Of a stretch of 33,098 bases of DNA, positions 13,352 through 23,162 are shown piece by piece; position 1 is the first letter of the stretch, and each line of letters begins with the position of its first letter. The notes below the pieces were generated by a model. That model had not been told where the DNA came from and did no database searches. It saw only the letters and a program-made list of their open reading frames with translations. Made by a program: the position numbers and the translations under genes. The stretch is from assembly GCA_024692385.1 (NCBI GenBank), contig JAILMS010000093.1, forward strand, positions 1 to 33,098. Reading direction: 5' to 3'. Source of the DNA: Prevotella sp. GTDB lineage: Bacteria > Bacteroidota > Bacteroidia > Bacteroidales > Bacteroidaceae.

Positions 13352-16126
13352 TCAGCCCTGACTGACGTCAATCGGTACCCAAAACCAGAAGGTAGAGCCA
13401 TGACCCTCGCCTTCTGAGGTGACACCAATGCGACCACCACACTTGTCGACAATGGCCTTACAGATGGCAAGGCCAAGACCTGTACCCTGTACGAAATCGT
13501 TCAGTTTGACAAAACGCTCAAAAACGGAAGCCTGCTTCTCCTTAGGGATGCCCACACCGGTATCTTCACAGAAGAAGCAGAGCCCGTCACGGCGTTGTCC
13601 ATTAATCTCACGCGACTCCTTGCGGTAGCCCACACGGATATGTCCCTTTTTGGTGTACTTGACGGCATTGGTAACGAAATTGGTCAGCAACTGCTGGAGG
13701 CGTCCCTTATCCATCATCACGGGCAACGAGTCGTAAGGATTATCTTTCAGGAACTTGACATCAGCATTCTGCACGCGCTGCTCCAGCGTCTGACAGATAT
13801 CGTTGAAGACAGGAGGCAAGTCGATTGATGTCCGCTCAATAGCAATAGCCTGTCCCATGCTGCTGGCTTCCAGAATATCGTTAATCAGTCGCAGCAGCAT
13901 GTCGCAGTTGTTACGAATGATACGTATGAACTCTTTACGCTCGTCAGGAGTATCAATCATCTGTAGCAGGTCGCTAAAGCCCACAATGGCATTGAGCGGC
14001 GTACGGATTTCATGCGTCATATTGGCTAGGAAGGCACTCTTCAAACGTCCTGAATCCTGAGCACGCGCCGTCTCCTCACGGAGTTTCTTCTGGGCAAGCA
14101 TCAAATCACTGACATCACGCACCAATCCAAAATATTCCTTGGAATGGCCCTCCTCGTCAGTAATAGGAATACCCGTAATAGCATACCATGTCAGCTCACT
14201 GGTAACAGGGGTATAGTTGAACTCGTGAATCACATTAAAGGGTTTTCCATTCAATACCAAGTCTTGGAAAACCTGCTCGGCTTCCTGGCGATGCTCAGCA
14301 GCCATGCCTGCCAGATAGTCCTCTAAGGATACTGAGTATTCTGTCTGACGCAAGCTACGCGTGAAGCGGATAATGCGCTCAAAAGTATTGAAGGTCCATA
14401 CATACATATTGCTCTCCTCCAACAGGTAGCGCAAGCGTTCCTCATAGCGGTTGATGGCATTATGCGTCTCTTTGAGCTGGCGCTCATGCTCACGCTGTTT
14501 CATATACATATCACGCTCAGCAGAAACATCACGGGAGGTGAGAATATAGTAAACCAGACGTCCCGTTTCATCGGTAATAGGCACAACACGCGTTTCAACA
14601 TACTTATCAACGCCCCAATTTGGATAACACATGTGTCCACTGGCATGGAAAGTACCCAAATGATTCTGGGCAGCATATTCCTTAAAGAACGGATCATCCA
14701 AGAACGACGTTTCGCGGAAATGGCGCTCACGTTCGGGAGTTAACTCCAGCAACTCGCGCATACGATGATTCATATGAATCACAAAACCATTGGCATCATG
14801 GAACGACATCGCCATCATGTTCGTCTCGAAGACCTTCATATATCTATCAGCCAGTTCCTGATTGCTACGCTCCTCTTCCAGGTCCTTGGTAATATCCTTG
14901 ATGGTATGCAAGATATAGCGAGGTATGCCATTCTCTCGTTCCAAGACAGCACCACCCACGAAGGTTCTCCAACAGGGTTTATCAATAGTACCAGCATTAT
15001 AACGGCGCTGCAAGTTCCATGTCTCACAATCGCCACGCTTCATGCAGTCAACATGCATACGGAACTCCTCACGCTCATCAGGGGCTATGCGCTCGATCAA
15101 CTCTTCCATAGCCATACCACCGACTGGCAACAAATCACCATGGATATTCTTGACAATGCCAAGAACAATGTCATATTCGAGCACAAAATAGTCATCCATA
15201 TCAAGAGCCTGTGCCATGATACTGTTCAACTCAGTATTACGACGTATGGAGGCGTTGACACGCTGAGAGAGAAGGTGAGCAGCAAAGAATACGACGAGAC
15301 CTGCCAAAGCCAGACCTATCAGGATGAACGGAGCCAAGGGGGACTCGTTGTCGTGTTCACGCTCAGGATGGAACCACTTATCGTAGATGCGCTGCAAGTC
15401 ACCCGCCTGCTCCAAACGAGTATATTGGTCATCAATAGCATCAAGCAGATCCTTATTATAGCCAATAATGTGTAACTCGCCAGCAGGGATATCCTTCACA
15501 TCATCCAATATAAGGCTATCAATACCCAGCTCTTGAATTTTCTTCTCAAGAGGCATCTGTCCCCAGATGTAGTAGTCGCATTGATGGGCTCGCACACTGG
15601 TAAGGCCATCCTTGGGCGAAAAATACTTTACCTTAAAGGGGATACTATCCATTTCACTGACACGCAGGGCCGCATAGTCATTCTTCTTAACACCTACCCT
15701 GACGCCCTTGCCAATAGCATTGATACCAGCGAAGGGAGGAACATCAATGCGTCGGACTACACGAAGATTGTAGTAGTTGACATATTTCTTCGTTTGTATA
15801 AACGGCTCGTGCCTGTAGTAAATCGATAGTGCGTGGAGCAAGTCGGCCTTATGCTTGACAAACATGTCACTTGACGCCTGCCATTCCTGCATGACATACT
15901 TATGAGGAATCTCCAGACGATTGAGAATAATATCAAGGACTTCCACATTATAGCCTGCAGGTTGTCCATCACTGTCGAGAAACTCGAAAGGACGGAAGTC
16001 CCAGTCACAGGCAATAATCAACGGATGTTCTTCGGTATAGCCGTAAGAATCATTGGCAGCTACCTTTGTAGGTAGCACACCCATAAACAAAGCAATCAAT
16101 ATATATGTTATGATTGAGTTTTTCAT
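13352..16126 (-). CDS. Sensor histidine kinase A: periplasmic SBP_bac_3-like domain + TM + PAS repeats + HisKA + HATPase_c (canonical H-box)
   Basis: SBP start YTEEHPLIIACDWDFRPFEFLDSDGQPAGYNVEVLD; TM LAPFILIGLALAGLVVFFAAHLL; H-box FLANMTHEIRTPLNAIVGFSDLL (His codon 14012-14014); N-box TNFVTNAVKYT; CEDTGVGIP; GTGLGLAIC. Confidence 0.9.
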   Translation of the reverse strand: MKNSIITYILIALFMGVLPTKVAANDSYGYTEEHPLIIACDWDFRPFEFLDSDGQPAGYNVEVLDIILNRLEIPHKYVMQEWQASSDMFVKHKADLLHALSIYYRHEPFIQTKKYVNYYNLRVVRRIDVPPFAGINAIGKGVRVGVKKNDYAALRVSEMDSIPFKVKYFSPKDGLTSVRAHQCDYYIWGQMPLEKKIQELGIDSLILDDVKDIPAGELHIIGYNKDLLDAIDDQYTRLEQAGDLQRIYDKWFHPEREHDNESPLAPFILIGLALAGLVVFFAAHLLSQRVNASIRRNTELNSIMAQALDMDDYFVLEYDIVLGIVKNIHGDLLPVGGMAMEELIERIAPDEREEFRMHVDCMKRGDCETWNLQRRYNAGTIDKPCWRTFVGGAVLERENGIPRYILHTIKDITKDLEEERSNQELADRYMKVFETNMMAMSFHDANGFVIHMNHRMRELLELTPERERHFRETSFLDDPFFKEYAAQNHLGTFHASGHMCYPNWGVDKYVETRVVPITDETGRLVYYILTSRDVSAERDMYMKQREHERQLKETHNAINRYEERLRYLLEESNMYVWTFNTFERIIRFTRSLRQTEYSVSLEDYLAGMAAEHRQEAEQVFQDLVLNGKPFNVIHEFNYTPVTSELTWYAITGIPITDEEGHSKEYFGLVRDVSDLMLAQKKLREETARAQDSGRLKSAFLANMTHEIRTPLNAIVGFSDLLQMIDTPDERKEFIRIIRNNCDMLLRLINDILEASSMGQAIAIERTSIDLPPVFNDICQTLEQRVQNADVKFLKDNPYDSLPVMMDKGRLQQLLTNFVTNAVKYTKKGHIRVGYRKESREINGQRRDGLCFFCEDTGVGIPKEKQASVFERFVKLNDFVQGTGLGLAICKAIVDKCGGRIGVTSEGEGHGSTFWFWVPIDVSQG

Positions 16127-16145
16127 TATTACTTTCTCCCCCCCT

Positions 16146-18923
16146 CTATTTCCTGACAATTTCTGTACATCTACACGGTATGCTCACCCAAACGATAGTA
16201 CCCTTGCCCACTTCTGACTTGATACGTATCTTACCACCCATCTGCGTGGTAATATCATGACAGATAGCAAGACCAAGACCAGTACCATGACCGCCAGACG
16301 ACACGAAACGATCGAAGATTTGCTTCATACGATCGTCGGAGATACCGCTACCAGTATCTTGGAAAGCCATAGCGACACCTTCACCGGTATACTCATAGCT
16401 GGCACGTACCATACCTTTGGTAGTATGCATCGTAGCGTTTTCCATCACCTGGTCGATGACAATGCCTAAATTCTGATCATCCAGCTCAACCATCAACTGC
16501 TGATAGGGATTGTCGGTTACGAAGTCGACACCATCATTATGATGAGCATTCCATACATTCTGGCAACGGGCATCGAAGAACTGAGCGAAGTCGACGGGTT
16601 TCCTCTTGAACTCAATCATACCGGCATCCAGTCGAGACAGGAACAAGATGTCGTTGATGAGTTTCAGCAACTTAGAAGAATTTTTCTTTATCTGTTCAAT
16701 GAACAGCGATTCTTCTTCCGACGTATGCGACATTTCGAAAAGCTCGGCAAAACCAATGACTGAACTGAGTGGCGTACGAATCTCATAACTCATGTTACGG
16801 AGGAAGGCATTCTTCACAGTTTCTACCTCCTGTGCCTTTGCACTCTCCTTGGCGAGTTTCTCTTCGGTGGCCTTAATCTCACTAATGTCACGACAGGCAC
16901 CAAAATACTCCTTAACACAGCCCTGATTATCTAATACTGGGACAAACGATATCAGCAAGCTGAGTCGCATGCCCTTCTTGACACGAATGATGGTATTAAA
17001 GGAATCTTTCAGCGGTGACAACACACGGTTATCCATGCTGTTGAACATGCGCTGAGCACGACGACGACAATCATCAGTAACAAGTGCCAGAATACGCGTC
17101 TGGGTCAACTTACTTTGCTCGCTACCGACATCGGTATATATTAATAATGTATGCGTATCAGGTGAATAACGTGCCATGCGCACACCACCATTCTGCAACA
17201 CATAATTAATGTTGCGGAAATAGGTATTCATCTCCTCATTGGCATGCTCCTGCAGTTCTATGTTGTGCTGTAGACGCTGATACGACTTCACTGTACCTGT
17301 CACATCACGCCCGGTGCCAAAGACTTCAAGCAGGCGTCCCCGACTGTCGCGTAACGGCAACAACTGCAGCTCATAGAACATTTGGCGCTTGTGAATCTGG
17401 GGATTGAAGATACGATCATCACGCCCCGCCTCATACAATCTTGTAAAATAGGAAGGCTGCAAGGTCTCTAACGAAAACTCATCGCCCAACACATCGCGCA
17501 GATTTACTCGGTTTTTCAGTGCTGTTTCTTTACCGCCAGGGAATTCTATATCAGCCTTTTCATTCATGTCATATATATAGCCTTTGCTATCGTAGACAAT
17601 GGTGTCAACCATCGCTGAATGGAAGACAGAGTGATAACGTAGCATAGTGTCTTTCACCTGCAACTGACGCTGGCGGTCGGCAGTAACATCACAATAAGTA
17701 CCTATAATATCGGTAGGCGTCCCGTTCTTGTCGCGTCGGAAGACGGACATCACGACTGACAATATCTGACAATCCCCATTCGGTCCCTGTTTCGAATGAA
17801 CCTCGATTTTCTTTTTCTCTATCTGACCTTCGGCAATCTGCAACAATATGCTACTAATCTGCTGCACATCCTCGGCCTGCATACGATTAAAGAAAATAGT
17901 CGGTGGCTGGCTGTCGGCCTCAACCTCACCTTTATCATTATAGACGGTAACGGTCTTTTTCTCCACATTGAATGTCCACAGATGCACATTCCACGTGCTA
18001 AGGATATGTGACAAACGGGTATTGCTGCGACGGATTGCCTTGGTCATCGTCTTCTCACGGAAGCGATAGAGGGCATAGTATCCGAGGGCAGCCAACAGAA
18101 TCAGGATCATAGCACCTACCACAATCCAAATCCAGTAAGGGATACCACTATCTTTGCGTTCCGGATAAAACCACTTGTTCTGGATAGGCTGCAATTTGCC
18201 TTCAGCCTCCATATGCGAATACACCTCGTCAATAATTTCCAATAGAATAGGCTGGTTGGACAGGAACTTATATTCACCATGTTGCATCTTAACGGGGGTC
18301 AGCTCCAAATCGTCGAAATGTAGTGTACGTTTCAGCCATTTCAGAGACAACGTATTCCAAACAATTTGCTGGTTGGGCTTGTTATGAATATCCTGTACAG
18401 CCTCACGCATATCGTTATAGGGCATGACATGATTCTCCAAGCCCTGACGCTTCATCAGATGGTGAGCAAAGCTACCGTCATGAACAATAAAATGGCTAGT
18501 CTTCAGATCATCTTCTGTCTTGATACGGAGGGGATCATTCTTACGACGTAACACACTATGAGTGAAAATCTGGACCACTGACTGTCCGAAATGTCCGTAT
18601 TCTCGGTGATAGTCTGCGTCCATGGCCAGCATTAAGTCGGCTTCACCATTCTTCACGTCTCGCAGCGCTTCCTTAGTGGGTTTGAGCTTAATAACGTAGG
18701 GAATGTCGAGTTCATCGCAGATAGATTTGATGAGATCGATATTATAGCCTACAGCCTCACCACTTGCATTGAGGAATGAATAAGGCCAAAGATCCCAGGC
18801 ATCCTCATAGATTAGCGGATGTTCACGATTGAAGACCCTCGCACTATCGTTGGGCAGCGCATATATCGGCGACAGCACCAACAGGCAAAGAGCAGTCATC
18901 AGAATACGGTAACAGTTGTTCAT
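16146..18923 (-). CDS. Histidine-kinase-like protein B: SBP_bac_3-like domain + TM + PAS repeats + HisKA-like with Tyr in place of His + HATPase_c
   Basis: NREHPLIYEDAWDLWPYSFLNASGEAVGYNIDLIKS; TM IPYWIWIVVGAMILILLAALGYYAL; FLRNMSYEIRTPLSSVIGFAELF (Tyr codon 16785-16787); N-box-like DQVMENATMHT; QDTGSGIS; GTGLGLAIC. Confidence 0.88.
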   Translation of the reverse strand: MNNCYRILMTALCLLVLSPIYALPNDSARVFNREHPLIYEDAWDLWPYSFLNASGEAVGYNIDLIKSICDELDIPYVIKLKPTKEALRDVKNGEADLMLAMDADYHREYGHFGQSVVQIFTHSVLRRKNDPLRIKTEDDLKTSHFIVHDGSFAHHLMKRQGLENHVMPYNDMREAVQDIHNKPNQQIVWNTLSLKWLKRTLHFDDLELTPVKMQHGEYKFLSNQPILLEIIDEVYSHMEAEGKLQPIQNKWFYPERKDSGIPYWIWIVVGAMILILLAALGYYALYRFREKTMTKAIRRSNTRLSHILSTWNVHLWTFNVEKKTVTVYNDKGEVEADSQPPTIFFNRMQAEDVQQISSILLQIAEGQIEKKKIEVHSKQGPNGDCQILSVVMSVFRRDKNGTPTDIIGTYCDVTADRQRQLQVKDTMLRYHSVFHSAMVDTIVYDSKGYIYDMNEKADIEFPGGKETALKNRVNLRDVLGDEFSLETLQPSYFTRLYEAGRDDRIFNPQIHKRQMFYELQLLPLRDSRGRLLEVFGTGRDVTGTVKSYQRLQHNIELQEHANEEMNTYFRNINYVLQNGGVRMARYSPDTHTLLIYTDVGSEQSKLTQTRILALVTDDCRRRAQRMFNSMDNRVLSPLKDSFNTIIRVKKGMRLSLLISFVPVLDNQGCVKEYFGACRDISEIKATEEKLAKESAKAQEVETVKNAFLRNMSYEIRTPLSSVIGFAELFEMSHTSEEESLFIEQIKKNSSKLLKLINDILFLSRLDAGMIEFKRKPVDFAQFFDARCQNVWNAHHNDGVDFVTDNPYQQLMVELDDQNLGIVIDQVMENATMHTTKGMVRASYEYTGEGVAMAFQDTGSGISDDRMKQIFDRFVSSGGHGTGLGLAICHDITTQMGGKIRIKSEVGKGTIVWVSIPCRCTEIVRK

Positions 18924-18935
18924 GGTTGATAGTTC

Positions 18936-21005
18936 TTACGCTTTTATTTCGCAACAAGGTATCCACATCCAGAAGGTAGAGCCATGCCCTTGTCCCTCAG
19001 AGTCTATACCGATAACACCATGGCATGCCGTGGCGATAGCCTTACAGATAGAGAGTCCCAAACCGGTACCTTGTATATAGTCATTGAGTTTGAAGAAGCG
19101 CTCAAAGAGTTTGTCCTGTACTTCTTTAGCAACACCGTCACCGGTATCTTCACAATAAAGGTACAAGCCTTCATGACTCTCGCCATTCTCTTCGCGCCAT
19201 TCTTTACGATAGCCCACCTTGATATGTCCCTGATGGGTGTATTTCACTGCATTGGTTACGAAATTGGTATAGACCTGACGAATACGGACTTCGTCAATCA
19301 TCGTCACATAAGTGGGATAAGGATTATCCTTGATAAACACGACAGTAGGTTCACGAAGGCGCTGCTGTAACTGTTCACAGAGTTCATCGAAGAACTTAGA
19401 GAAATCGGTCTGCAGGGCCATAATATCTACACTGCCGCTGATATCCAGTGAAGCTGCATCCTGGATGTCGTTAACCAGACGGAGCAACATGTCGCAGTTA
19501 TCTGTGATAAGGCGAATCATTTCCTGACGCTCCTCAGGAGTAGAGAGCATCGGCAGAACATCAGAGAAACCGACGATAGCATTCAGCGGAGTACGAATCT
19601 CATGGGTCATATTTGCAAGGAAGATACTCTTCATGCGACCAGAGTCGTTAGCACGCTCCGTTTCACGCTTCAGTTGTTCCTGTTTCTGCATGAGCTGGTT
19701 GATGTTACGCCATATGCCAAAAGCACCCTTCAGATTACCTTGTTCATCAAATTCAGGAATACTGTTAATCTGCACCCACTGCGGTTCTGTATGCTCATGT
19801 GTCACGACAAAATTCATACGTCCCATATAACTAATGGGCTTGCCAATAACGATGGCAGGATTATCCAAATCGCGTACAAACTCGTCATCCTGATTATAGA
19901 AGATACCCTTCAGCTGCTGCAACGTGAATTGTTTGGTGACAGTACTCAATCCATTATAGAATTCTATCACATTACGTTCCAAAGAAATACGCCAAGCCTG
20001 TAAGCCACAAGTATCCATCATGTAGCGCAACTCTTTTTCATAGAGCTGAATAGATTCATTGACCTTCTGGATTTCGATATCGTTCTTTTTGGCTTGCATA
20101 TACAACTCACGCTCTTCTGAGATATCACGTGCAGCCACAGAAAGGTATATCAGCTTACCTTCATCATCATAGATTGGGTGTACACCTATTTCCAGATAGA
20201 TATACATTTCGCGTTCAGGAACAATACTCAGTGAGCAAGCCAGATATTCGTTCGGATGATAACGGTCGAGTACCTCATTAAAAGGAGCTATATCAAACAG
20301 ATTTACCTTCGAGAAGAAGGCGTCACTATCATCACTGTCGAAGTGACAGATGTCACGCATCATCTTGTTGGCGGCAAGCAGCCATCCCTCAGGTGAATAG
20401 AATGACAAACCTACGATAGAGTCCTCAAAGATTTGCTTATAGCGCTTGGTAAGTTCTTCTTCTTCCTGCTGATGAGTACGCAATTCCGTTTCATCAAGCA
20501 GCACACTGATAATGCTAACAGGGGTACTGCTTCCTGCAACATATTCAGCCACACTATTGCTACGGATGTAAATCCAACACGGTTCTCCACCGCCATAGTT
20601 GACATTCCAGCGATAGCTAAATTCTGCGGACTGCAACTTACCATCAAGAAGCTGCTGAAGAGTTATTAATGCTTGATCGGCATCATCAGGATGGAGATAA
20701 TTTCTGAACTCGTCAGCTTTAATCTCGGAACTTGGAAGCAAATTACCTCTCAGTCGCCTGATAGTATTACCGGCAATGTCATAGATGACGACATCATTGT
20801 CGGCTATCTTTAGAGCTTTCTCCATCATCTCATAGGTAGAGGTGGCTGAAGCGATGCTTTGGCGAACATGACGACGCACACGGAAATTCTGATACATGAG
20901 GGCCATAAAGGATAGTGACACCACCAGCAGTAACAGTAACGCTCCAAGCGACGTAATCGAAATAGAGAGTTCTAAGAGGAGATATGTGAATGTCAGTATT
21001 ATCAT
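18936..21005 (-). CDS. Sensor histidine kinase C: N-terminal TM, PAS repeats, HisKA + HATPase_c (canonical H-box), no periplasmic binding domain
   Basis: N-terminal hydrophobic segment; FLANMTHEIRTPLNAIVGFSDVL (His codon 19602-19604); TNFVTNAVKYT; CEDTGDGV; GTGLGLSIC; ATGA overlap with upstream ORF. Confidence 0.9.
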   Translation of the reverse strand: MIILTFTYLLLELSISITSLGALLLLLVVSLSFMALMYQNFRVRRHVRQSIASATSTYEMMEKALKIADNDVVIYDIAGNTIRRLRGNLLPSSEIKADEFRNYLHPDDADQALITLQQLLDGKLQSAEFSYRWNVNYGGGEPCWIYIRSNSVAEYVAGSSTPVSIISVLLDETELRTHQQEEEELTKRYKQIFEDSIVGLSFYSPEGWLLAANKMMRDICHFDSDDSDAFFSKVNLFDIAPFNEVLDRYHPNEYLACSLSIVPEREMYIYLEIGVHPIYDDEGKLIYLSVAARDISEERELYMQAKKNDIEIQKVNESIQLYEKELRYMMDTCGLQAWRISLERNVIEFYNGLSTVTKQFTLQQLKGIFYNQDDEFVRDLDNPAIVIGKPISYMGRMNFVVTHEHTEPQWVQINSIPEFDEQGNLKGAFGIWRNINQLMQKQEQLKRETERANDSGRMKSIFLANMTHEIRTPLNAIVGFSDVLPMLSTPEERQEMIRLITDNCDMLLRLVNDIQDAASLDISGSVDIMALQTDFSKFFDELCEQLQQRLREPTVVFIKDNPYPTYVTMIDEVRIRQVYTNFVTNAVKYTHQGHIKVGYRKEWREENGESHEGLYLYCEDTGDGVAKEVQDKLFERFFKLNDYIQGTGLGLSICKAIATACHGVIGIDSEGQGHGSTFWMWIPCCEIKA

Positions 21006-23098
21006 AGCAGGATGTTTTCAGTTGTATTTGAGGTATTTTCTTCAAGTCGTCTTTCTATAGTTGCCGCCTCACAAGGAACTGCTACCCAGATAGTAGTACC
21101 CTTGTGCTGCTTCGACTCAACTTCTATGGTACCGCCCATCTGACGAACCAACGACTCGACGATAGGCAGGTCAAGACCGGAGCCATAGAGTTCGTCGTCG
21201 GGACCTTGTACAAAACGATCAAACATATGTGGCATAACATCTTCAGGAATACCTTCACCATTGTCTTCAATGGTAATGAGCAATTCGCCACGACGATATT
21301 CACAACGGGCCTTAGAATAGCCCTGCTCCAGATGGAGTGTGGACAACCAACAAAGTTTCTCAATAACCTTTCCTAATTGTTCTACGTCAATATTAATAAC
21401 CAGACTATCATAGGGGTTGTCAACAATTGTCTTCACCTGAGTGTTAGCATCGCTCCAACCGAGCTGACAGTAGTTGGCAAAGATTGCTGAGAAGTCAATA
21501 TAATCCTTGTGATATTCCACCATATTGGCATCCAGACTTGACAACAACATAATATCGTTCACCAACTTCAGCATATTGTTAGAGTGGGTTTTTATCTGCT
21601 CGACAAAAGCAGGCTCATCGGCCTCATCGTGGGGTGCATTAAACAATCCGGCGAAACCGACAACATTATTCAATGGGGTACGAATCTGATAACTCATGTT
21701 CGAGAGGAAGGATTGCTTCAGCAGCTCTGTCTCCTGAGCCTTCTTAGTCTCCACGGCCAGACGATTTTCCATCTCCACCATATCAGTCATATCACGGCAC
21801 ATACCATAATAGCGCTCCACCTTTCCATTTTCATCAAGCATGGGCACCATATTGAACATCAGCCAGATAGGACGACCTTTCTTGTCACGAATCTCAGTCT
21901 CGATGTTGACATTAATATTATAAGGTGACAGATGATCCATACGGTTCAGCACGCTGGAAACAGTGCGACGGAAGCGCGGGGTAGCCAAACGGATACAGCG
22001 TAACTGTGACAACTTCATCTGTGACTGCGTGATATTATTAGACAACTCCAGCGTGAATGACTTCGGATAGTAGTTTACCATACGAATATCACTGATACGC
22101 AGCGCATAATTAATATTGGAGATGTATTCACGGATATTCTCGTTCACCTTATGCAACTGCTCGGCACCAGCTTTCTGGCGGTGGTACGAAACCACCATCT
22201 CCGTAATATCACGACCAGCCATATAAACACCCTCCAAATTACCTTTTGCATCTCGGATGGGGTTAATGGTAGAATCGTAGTACATCTTCTTTCCTTTCAA
22301 GCCAAATTCATCCAAATGATAGATAGGAGATTCGAAATTATGGAAGTCTACAATAGAGGAAGAACGAGTATTATCCATTGACTCAAGATCGACATCAGCA
22401 AAAAAGGGATTGTTCTTCAATAGGAATTCATTGTCAAGCACAAATTCACGATTGGGAACGCCAAAGGCCTTGCAGGCACGATCATTGATGTCACGCAAAA
22501 CACCATGGTTATCGTAGTACACCATATCAATCAGCGAACTACTGAACACCGTATGATAACGAAGCAGCAACTGATTGACAGCCTCCAAACGACGATACTC
22601 TTCAGTTACGTCATGCTGGATTCCTAAAATACTGACAACATGACCTCTGCTGTTACGACGATCTACGGATACTGTCACCTCATAATGGCGAAGGAAAGAG
22701 TCATCCTTGGCATTACTGGCCAGCATGACAACGGCATTATTCTTCTTACCATCACAAATATCGAAGATTGCCGTGCGTAGCGTTTCAAAGTCTTCACGGT
22801 CAAAGAACTGTAGGAAATCTATAGGATTATAACGCTGCTCCATAGTACCTTCTTCAGAAATAATAAGATACTGACGGGTAGCAGGAATATATTTCCATAT
22901 ACGCAAGCGCCCTGCTTGCAGAACTAAAGCCAGATGGGCATTCTGTTCCTTCTGGCGAGCAGTAGCCTCTTTGGCGCGCTTCAGATAGACATAATTGTAG
23001 ACAATCACTATCAGAATCGCCACCAACAGCACACCCACTACGGCAAATACGTAGTGATTGAGGCTCGACATTGACATTTCACTCGTTTGATATAACAT
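21002..23098 (-). CDS. Histidine-kinase-like protein D (probable pseudokinase): N-terminal TM, PAS repeats, degenerate HisKA/HATPase_c
   Basis: TM YVFAVVGVLLVAILIVIVYNYVYL; FLSNMSYQIRTPLNNVVGFAGLF (Tyr codon 21689-21691); N-box replaced by EKLCWLSTLHL; EDNGEGIP retained; G2 changed to GSGLDLPIV. The track start 23134 is a TTG inside the promoter; ATG 23098 or 23077 preferred. Confidence 0.86.
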   Translation of the reverse strand: MLYQTSEMSMSSLNHYVFAVVGVLLVAILIVIVYNYVYLKRAKEATARQKEQNAHLALVLQAGRLRIWKYIPATRQYLIISEEGTMEQRYNPIDFLQFFDREDFETLRTAIFDICDGKKNNAVVMLASNAKDDSFLRHYEVTVSVDRRNSRGHVVSILGIQHDVTEEYRRLEAVNQLLLRYHTVFSSSLIDMVYYDNHGVLRDINDRACKAFGVPNREFVLDNEFLLKNNPFFADVDLESMDNTRSSSIVDFHNFESPIYHLDEFGLKGKKMYYDSTINPIRDAKGNLEGVYMAGRDITEMVVSYHRQKAGAEQLHKVNENIREYISNINYALRISDIRMVNYYPKSFTLELSNNITQSQMKLSQLRCIRLATPRFRRTVSSVLNRMDHLSPYNINVNIETEIRDKKGRPIWLMFNMVPMLDENGKVERYYGMCRDMTDMVEMENRLAVETKKAQETELLKQSFLSNMSYQIRTPLNNVVGFAGLFNAPHDEADEPAFVEQIKTHSNNMLKLVNDIMLLSSLDANMVEYHKDYIDFSAIFANYCQLGWSDANTQVKTIVDNPYDSLVINIDVEQLGKVIEKLCWLSTLHLEQGYSKARCEYRRGELLITIEDNGEGIPEDVMPHMFDRFVQGPDDELYGSGLDLPIVESLVRQMGGTIEVESKQHKGTTIWVAVPCEAATIERRLEENTSNTTENILL

Positions 23099-23131
23099 TC
23101 TTAGGATAGTAGTATCATAGGTTAATGTAGG

Positions 23132-23162
23132 CAAAGGTATAAAACTTACGGCACTTTACAAA
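23132..23162 (-). promoter_or_regulatory. Promoter of the kinase cluster D-C-B-A
   Basis: Minus strand: -33 TTTG (CAAA at 23159-23162), 19 bp spacer, -7 TACCTTTG (CAAAGGTA at 23132-23139). Confidence 0.65.

Follow-up and report, generated by a model that had tools for sequence, protein, structure and literature searches.

Architecture of the array

The window analysed here is a stretch of 33,098 nucleotides from Prevotella sp. (GenBank assembly GCA_024692385.1, contig JAILMS010000093.1). It carries four consecutive minus-strand genes encoding histidine kinase-like proteins with multiple PAS domains, called D, C, B and A in the order of transcription. The gene order, the open reading frames (ORFs) and the H-box strings are all as given in the preliminary description of this DNA, and so is its central observation that the phospho-acceptor position is a Tyr in D and B versus a His in C and A. 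The features of the array are as follows (TM, transmembrane; SBP, solute-binding protein).

23132-23162, minus strand: Bacteroidota-type promoter consensus TTTG-N19-TAnnTTTG, directly upstream of D
21002-23134 (ATG at 23098), minus strand: gene D, first gene of the operon; TM, PAS domains and probable HisKA/HATPase pseudokinase
21689-21691, minus strand: phospho-acceptor position of D, Tyr (TAT)
18936-21005, minus strand: gene C; TM, PAS and HisKA/HATPase, catalytic motifs all intact
19602-19604, minus strand: phospho-acceptor of C, His (CAT)
16146-18923, minus strand: gene B; periplasmic SBP_bac_3, TM, PAS and probable HisKA/HATPase pseudokinase, ATP-site Asn retained
18168-18791, minus strand: SBP_bac_3 domain of B (aa 45-252; Pfam, 59.5 bits)
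16785-16787, minus strand: phospho-acceptor position of B, Tyr (TAT)
13352-16159 (ATG at 16126), minus strand: gene A; periplasmic SBP_bac_3, TM, PAS and HisKA/HATPase, catalytic motifs all intact
15368-16021, minus strand: SBP_bac_3 domain of A (aa 47-264; Pfam, 53.3 bits)
14012-14014, minus strand: phospho-acceptor of A, His (CAT)

D and C overlap by 4 nt, C and B are separated by 12 nt, and the ATG of A lies about 20 nt past the stop codon of B. The promoter consensus upstream of D has two matches in the window against 0.09 expected, and the same motif is also found just upstream of the first kinase gene in many relatives. Because the genes overlap or abut and are preceded by a recurring promoter motif, D-C-B-A very likely forms a single transcript.

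Pfam searches place HisKA and HATPase_c (above cut-off) as well as PAS domains in all four proteins, whereas only A and B have a periplasmic SBP_bac_3 domain, a feature absent from the preliminary description. The order of domains in A and B, SBP_bac_3-TM-PAS-HisKA, is that of the SBP-type sensor kinases EvgS and BvgS, in which a periplasmic SBP_bac_3 domain is followed by TM, PAS and HisKA. The aligned SBP consensus shows no conserved binding residues that could be assigned, and we claim no ligand. Unlike EvgS and BvgS, neither A nor B is a hybrid kinase, and one member of each pair is probably a pseudokinase. No receiver or HPt domain was found by Pfam within the A-D proteins, and no response regulator adjoins the array among its conserved neighbours in the window and in relatives; judged by its domains and gene neighbourhood, the array is therefore not a hybrid two-component system.

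Conserved pairing in Prevotellaceae

In a scan of a genome collection, strong relatives were confined to Prevotella, Xylanibacter and other Prevotellaceae. Outside the genus, the same scan gave nothing above generic histidine kinase similarity, the matches elsewhere being generic kinase cores, and viral contigs likewise held generic cores only. We collected 81 distinct Prevotellaceae loci, comprising 32 of type D-C-B-A, 19 B-A, 16 D-C, 4 B-A-B-A and a few others. Across these loci B is followed by A in 59 cases and D by C in 49; each B precedes an A and each D a C, except where a contig ends or the partner ORF is split or masked. Two genomes have a single ORF for C and B, so that kinase and pseudokinase are fused in one chain (L056:2-4135, cut at the contig start, and L122:7979-12715, 1579 aa). 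At L099:2119-4461, in a genome shared with L061, a frameshift has split D into three ORFs while C, B and A are intact, with B bearing a His; this broken D is a rare case of pseudokinase loss.

Active-site residues and two probable grades of pseudokinase

Active-site residues were tallied for 64 A, 66 B, 52 C and 52-53 D sequences, and 118 B/D cores were examined. All A (64/64) and all C (52/52) sequences, 116/116 together, have the phospho-acceptor His, the Glu at +1, the N-box Asn and the G1, F and G2 residues. By their domains and phospho-acceptor His, A and C are thus predicted to be HisKA histidine kinases. The corresponding position in B (n=66) is occupied by Tyr in 35 sequences, His in 13, Phe in 10, Gln in 4, Glu in 2, and Ser and Gly in one each, and in D (n=52) by Tyr in 49 and His in 3, so that Tyr is found in 84 of the 118. 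The Tyr (TAC/TAT) and His (CAC/CAT) codons are one transition apart. Around the site, Arg at +3 and Pro at +5 are found in 118/118, Glu at +1 in 113/118 and Thr at +4 in 111/118.

The ATP-binding motifs tell B and D apart. The N-box Asn is kept in 59 of 66 B sequences and in 8 of 53 D sequences; in the window it is present in B (VMENATMHT) and missing from D (EKLCWLSTLHL). In D the final Gly of the G2 box is gone as well, the fifth position of this box being Asp in 45/53, and N or F boxes are missing from some copies of B. Since retention of the ATP motifs differs in this way, the B and D proteins without phospho-acceptor His are probably pseudokinases of two grades, ATP binding being absent in D and possible in B. 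A structural model of the D core shows an intact histidine kinase fold (AF2 pLDDT 88), and Foldseek matched it to histidine kinase cores with TMq up to 0.78, DivL of Caulobacter crescentus (4q20) included.

The B sequences with Gln, Glu, Ser or Gly form a distinct subclade, mostly of second B-A pairs (L054, L059, L066, L067, L070, L077, L097 and L107). His-bearing H-boxes inside the pseudokinase clade were seen in B of L096, L098, L108, L109, L114 and L061 and in D of L058, L060 and L133.

Origin of the pairs and selection

The resemblance of B to D and of A to C that had been noticed from short shared stretches spans the entire cytoplasmic part (B:D 398 bits versus B:C 205; A:C 464 versus A:D 189). 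In core trees B and D form a clade (support 100/99.7), as do A and C (100/96), and both together with L086 are joined at 96/94. Sister relationships of A with B and of C with D, which would have spoken for independent Tyr changes, are rejected, and the proposed duplication of a pseudokinase-kinase pair is borne out by the tree and by the conserved pairing. In a larger, quick tree the D clade (97) is nested in B and the C clade (81) in A. Because of this nesting, the trees identify an SBP-bearing B-A pair as the ancestor, which gave rise to D-C by tandem duplication and subsequent SBP loss.

The expectation that Tyr would be conserved in close relatives held in part only. It fails for the 13 B and 3 D sequences with His and the 10 B sequences with Phe mentioned above. 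The best reading of these His residues is nevertheless a regain from an ancestral Tyr, because Tyr is favoured at the root of B/D (posterior 0.65-0.90) and the log-likelihood (lnL) worsens by 24-29 units if the model does not allow His to be regained. As far as these reconstructions go, the conserved feature is a partner able to do without the His, rather than Tyr as such. The dN/dS of B and D is 0.07-0.19, the same as that of A and C, and thus B and D are maintained by purifying selection and are not decaying; together with full-length ORFs in dozens of species, this agrees with the earlier view that the Tyr members are not products of random decay.

An orphan receiver heading an exopolysaccharide operon

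Since the array itself is without a response regulator, we searched for an orphan receiver of matching distribution. The candidate is a single-domain receiver of 123 aa (hereafter SDRR; G000:C160:31282-31650; L185, L227 and L311; PF00072, 92.7 bits), the first gene of an exopolysaccharide (EPS) operon located elsewhere in the genome. It is followed by a priming sugar transferase (Bac_transf) whose N-terminus is receiver-like (a weak match only), and the run further holds an export protein of the outer membrane, a membrane protein of 731 aa with no match in Pfam, Wzy_C, three GT2 glycosyltransferases and another membrane protein, possibly a flippase. SDRR is 93-100% identical between species, as compared with 83-93% for RecA (among the genus hits listed) and 30-80% for full-length B. 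The assembly contains two SDRR copies (C130 and C160) and two closely similar genes for a 525-aa response regulator (G000:C10 and C72); contigs of a second, closely related species may be mixed into this metagenome-assembled genome (MAG; contamination 5.5%).

Of 278 genomes of the genus, each 90% complete or better save for the window's own, array and SDRR occur together in 88, the array without SDRR in 7 (three being weak hits), SDRR without the array in none, and neither in 183. The raw Fisher p of 9e-65 was set aside as evidence of linkage, since it ignores phylogeny. That this matters was seen with a control, the TPR-type histidine kinase family L010 (G000:C88:10603-12639), which occurs in array-bearing genomes only (47/278, in 1-4 copies) and may either feed the same network as a further input or mark a lineage. 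When mapped on a recA tree, the array takes 10 changes and SDRR 9. Supported branches of this tree provide five independent contrasts, of which SDRR follows the array in 4.7 and opposes it in none, with a mismatch in 1/74 rows; L010 follows the array in 0.7 of the 5 and mismatches in 18/74. Because SDRR tracks the array on contrasts where the control fails, these data support a functional link between array and SDRR beyond shared ancestry. Inside the main array clade, array and SDRR are jointly absent from three genomes (G059, G289 and G203).

Comparison with known systems

Among the closest known counterparts of B and D is DivL of C. crescentus, in which Tyr550 replaces the His and both kinase and phosphatase activity are absent (PMC4211667). 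DivL binds DivK~P through the face of its dimerisation and histidine phosphotransfer (DHp) domain, by R553 and other residues, and the Y550H variant retains this binding (PMC4211667). Among PDB sequence matches, DivL ranked second for the B core and for the D core alike. Like them, DivL (PDB 4Q20) is a multi-PAS HisKA/HATPase protein which keeps the Arg at +3, with Tyr in place of His throughout the DivL family (one Ala exception), and its pathway includes a single-domain receiver, DivK, along with CckA. The differences are that B and D are paired in an operon with their own kinase, that B carries an SBP sensor, and that the site may also hold His, Phe or another residue. In addition, the best tree puts B/D with the Prevotella A/C kinases (96/94) and DivL outside; forcing DivL in costs 13.3 lnL units (approximately unbiased test, p=0.083), so that a common ancestry with DivL is disfavoured short of formal rejection.

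Heterodimers that join a kinase to an inactive partner or to a paralogue are also known, from native ChrS with HrrS (PMC9491836) and from FasB/FasC of group A Streptococcus, which are encoded at one locus and both keep a candidate phospho-acceptor His (PMC12675982). Like FasB/FasC and RetS/GacS of Pseudomonas, the array has sensor-kinase paralogues of which one would modulate or complete the other. It differs from them in that no whole Tyr clade has been described for those systems, and no tandem duplication of the pair into four genes.

Proposed mechanism and alternatives

We propose a single pathway that controls SDRR and surface polysaccharide synthesis, with A and C as its kinases and B and D as regulatory pseudokinases akin to DivL, a reading to which we give an even chance. 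A would read periplasmic signals via its SBP domain, both A and C would read cytoplasmic signals via PAS, and the two would phosphorylate SDRR. B and D would form dimers with the kinase next to them or act as its scaffold, and/or bind SDRR through a DHp docking face whose retention is suggested by the invariant Arg+3 and Pro+5. They would thereby set the kinase/phosphatase balance without transferring phosphate themselves, and SDRR would in turn adjust EPS synthesis. A DivL-like role fits a site at which Tyr, Phe and His interchange, because DivL Y550H still binds DivK~P.

Several observations weigh against this proposal. His is present in 16/118 of the B/D cores, so that some may be active kinases, and most B retain the ATP motifs. 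On the side of SDRR, co-occurrence is the whole basis of the link to the array: four convincing array genomes (G209, G213, G271 and G306) have no detected SDRR, although gaps in MAGs are possible, recA makes a weak species tree, five independent contrasts by themselves cannot reach p<0.05, and the restriction of L010 to array genomes shows that lineage effects exist. It could therefore be that array and SDRR/EPS operon co-occur via one gut or rumen lineage and that A and C in truth act on a different regulator. The lack of a response regulator beside the array and the restriction of L010, too, to array genomes would agree with this, but L010 follows the array much more poorly than SDRR on the same contrasts, and array and SDRR are jointly absent from some genomes inside the main array clade; we regard this explanation as possible but less probable than a pathway through SDRR.

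The main mechanistic rival to a regulatory role of B and D is that they are dedicated phosphatases for SDRR phosphorylated by A and C, the two roles having been split between duplicated paralogues. Thr+4, which phosphatase activity alone requires (PMC3510030), is retained in B/D, and Tyr, Phe or Gln at the H position could be tolerated. On the other hand, Glu+1, which is needed for kinase but not phosphatase activity, is kept in nearly all of them, and DivL has the same motif but no phosphatase activity, which makes this explanation unlikely. Somewhat more doubtful still is a heterodimer of B with A (and D with C) in which the intact ATP domain of B phosphorylates the His of A in trans, half-of-sites, as proposed for FasB/FasC (PMC12675982). 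The N, G1, F and G2 boxes kept in most B, the strict B-A adjacency and the two C-B gene fusions (L056 and L122) might be seen in this light. However, the fusions join C to B, which are not partners of one pair, N or F boxes are lost in some B too, and the mechanism is excluded for the D-C pair, since few D keep the ATP-site Asn and the G2 Gly is gone. That slow decay of ordinary kinases accounts for B and D, with Tyr a shared accident, is very improbable: the H position is variable (Y/F/H/Q/E/S/G) and one D is frameshifted (L099 and L061, one genome), but the idea is strongly disfavoured by a dN/dS as low as in A and C, and full-length ORFs in dozens of species, with pairing in all intact loci, also speak against it.

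Returning to the regulatory reading, one can tentatively go further and suppose that Prevotella has a DivL-DivK-like circuit which arose independently of that of Caulobacter. Two pseudokinase-kinase pairs would converge on a hyper-conserved SDRR heading and controlling the EPS operon, the pseudokinases would read SDRR phosphorylation, and the lost His would have been regained in several lineages. We consider this extended version clearly less probable than the general proposal.

Neighbouring genes

The genes adjacent to the array were rejected as its output: they are housekeeping genes (frr, rsgA), cysK/metY, and transporter, AraC or sugar-kinase genes. In many species metY (O-acetylhomoserine sulfhydrylase) and cysK lie directly upstream of the array and co-directional with it (L103:3338-5604; also L104, L107, L111, L123, L124, L127, L128, L137 and L138), in others cysK alone, and a link to sulfur amino acids is possible. 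In the window genome metY is directly followed by a gene for a LuxR-type regulator with a degenerate receiver (L195:1477-2130). It was likewise rejected as the output, as its family is broad in the genus and not tied to the array.

Significance

That a pseudo-histidine-kinase can modulate a kinase was already known, from few isolated cases and chiefly from DivL. Apparently new, as far as could be tested, are the operonic duplicated pair, the variation of the key residue and the co-distribution with the SDRR/EPS operon; no paper on the array or on this operon was found in the open-licence literature searched. Here a whole clade (118 cores) is found with the active partner adjoining. It has been duplicated once as a unit and comes with natural variation of the key residue (Tyr, Phe, His, Gln, Glu, Ser and Gly) and with a candidate output. 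B and D look like retained regulators rather than decaying genes, and for the Prevotella common in rumen and gut the array offers a lead on how exopolysaccharide is controlled. It opens to experiment the questions of why an inactive partner is kept in a kinase family, whether Tyr itself counts or just the absence of His, and by what route a pseudokinase can recover its His.
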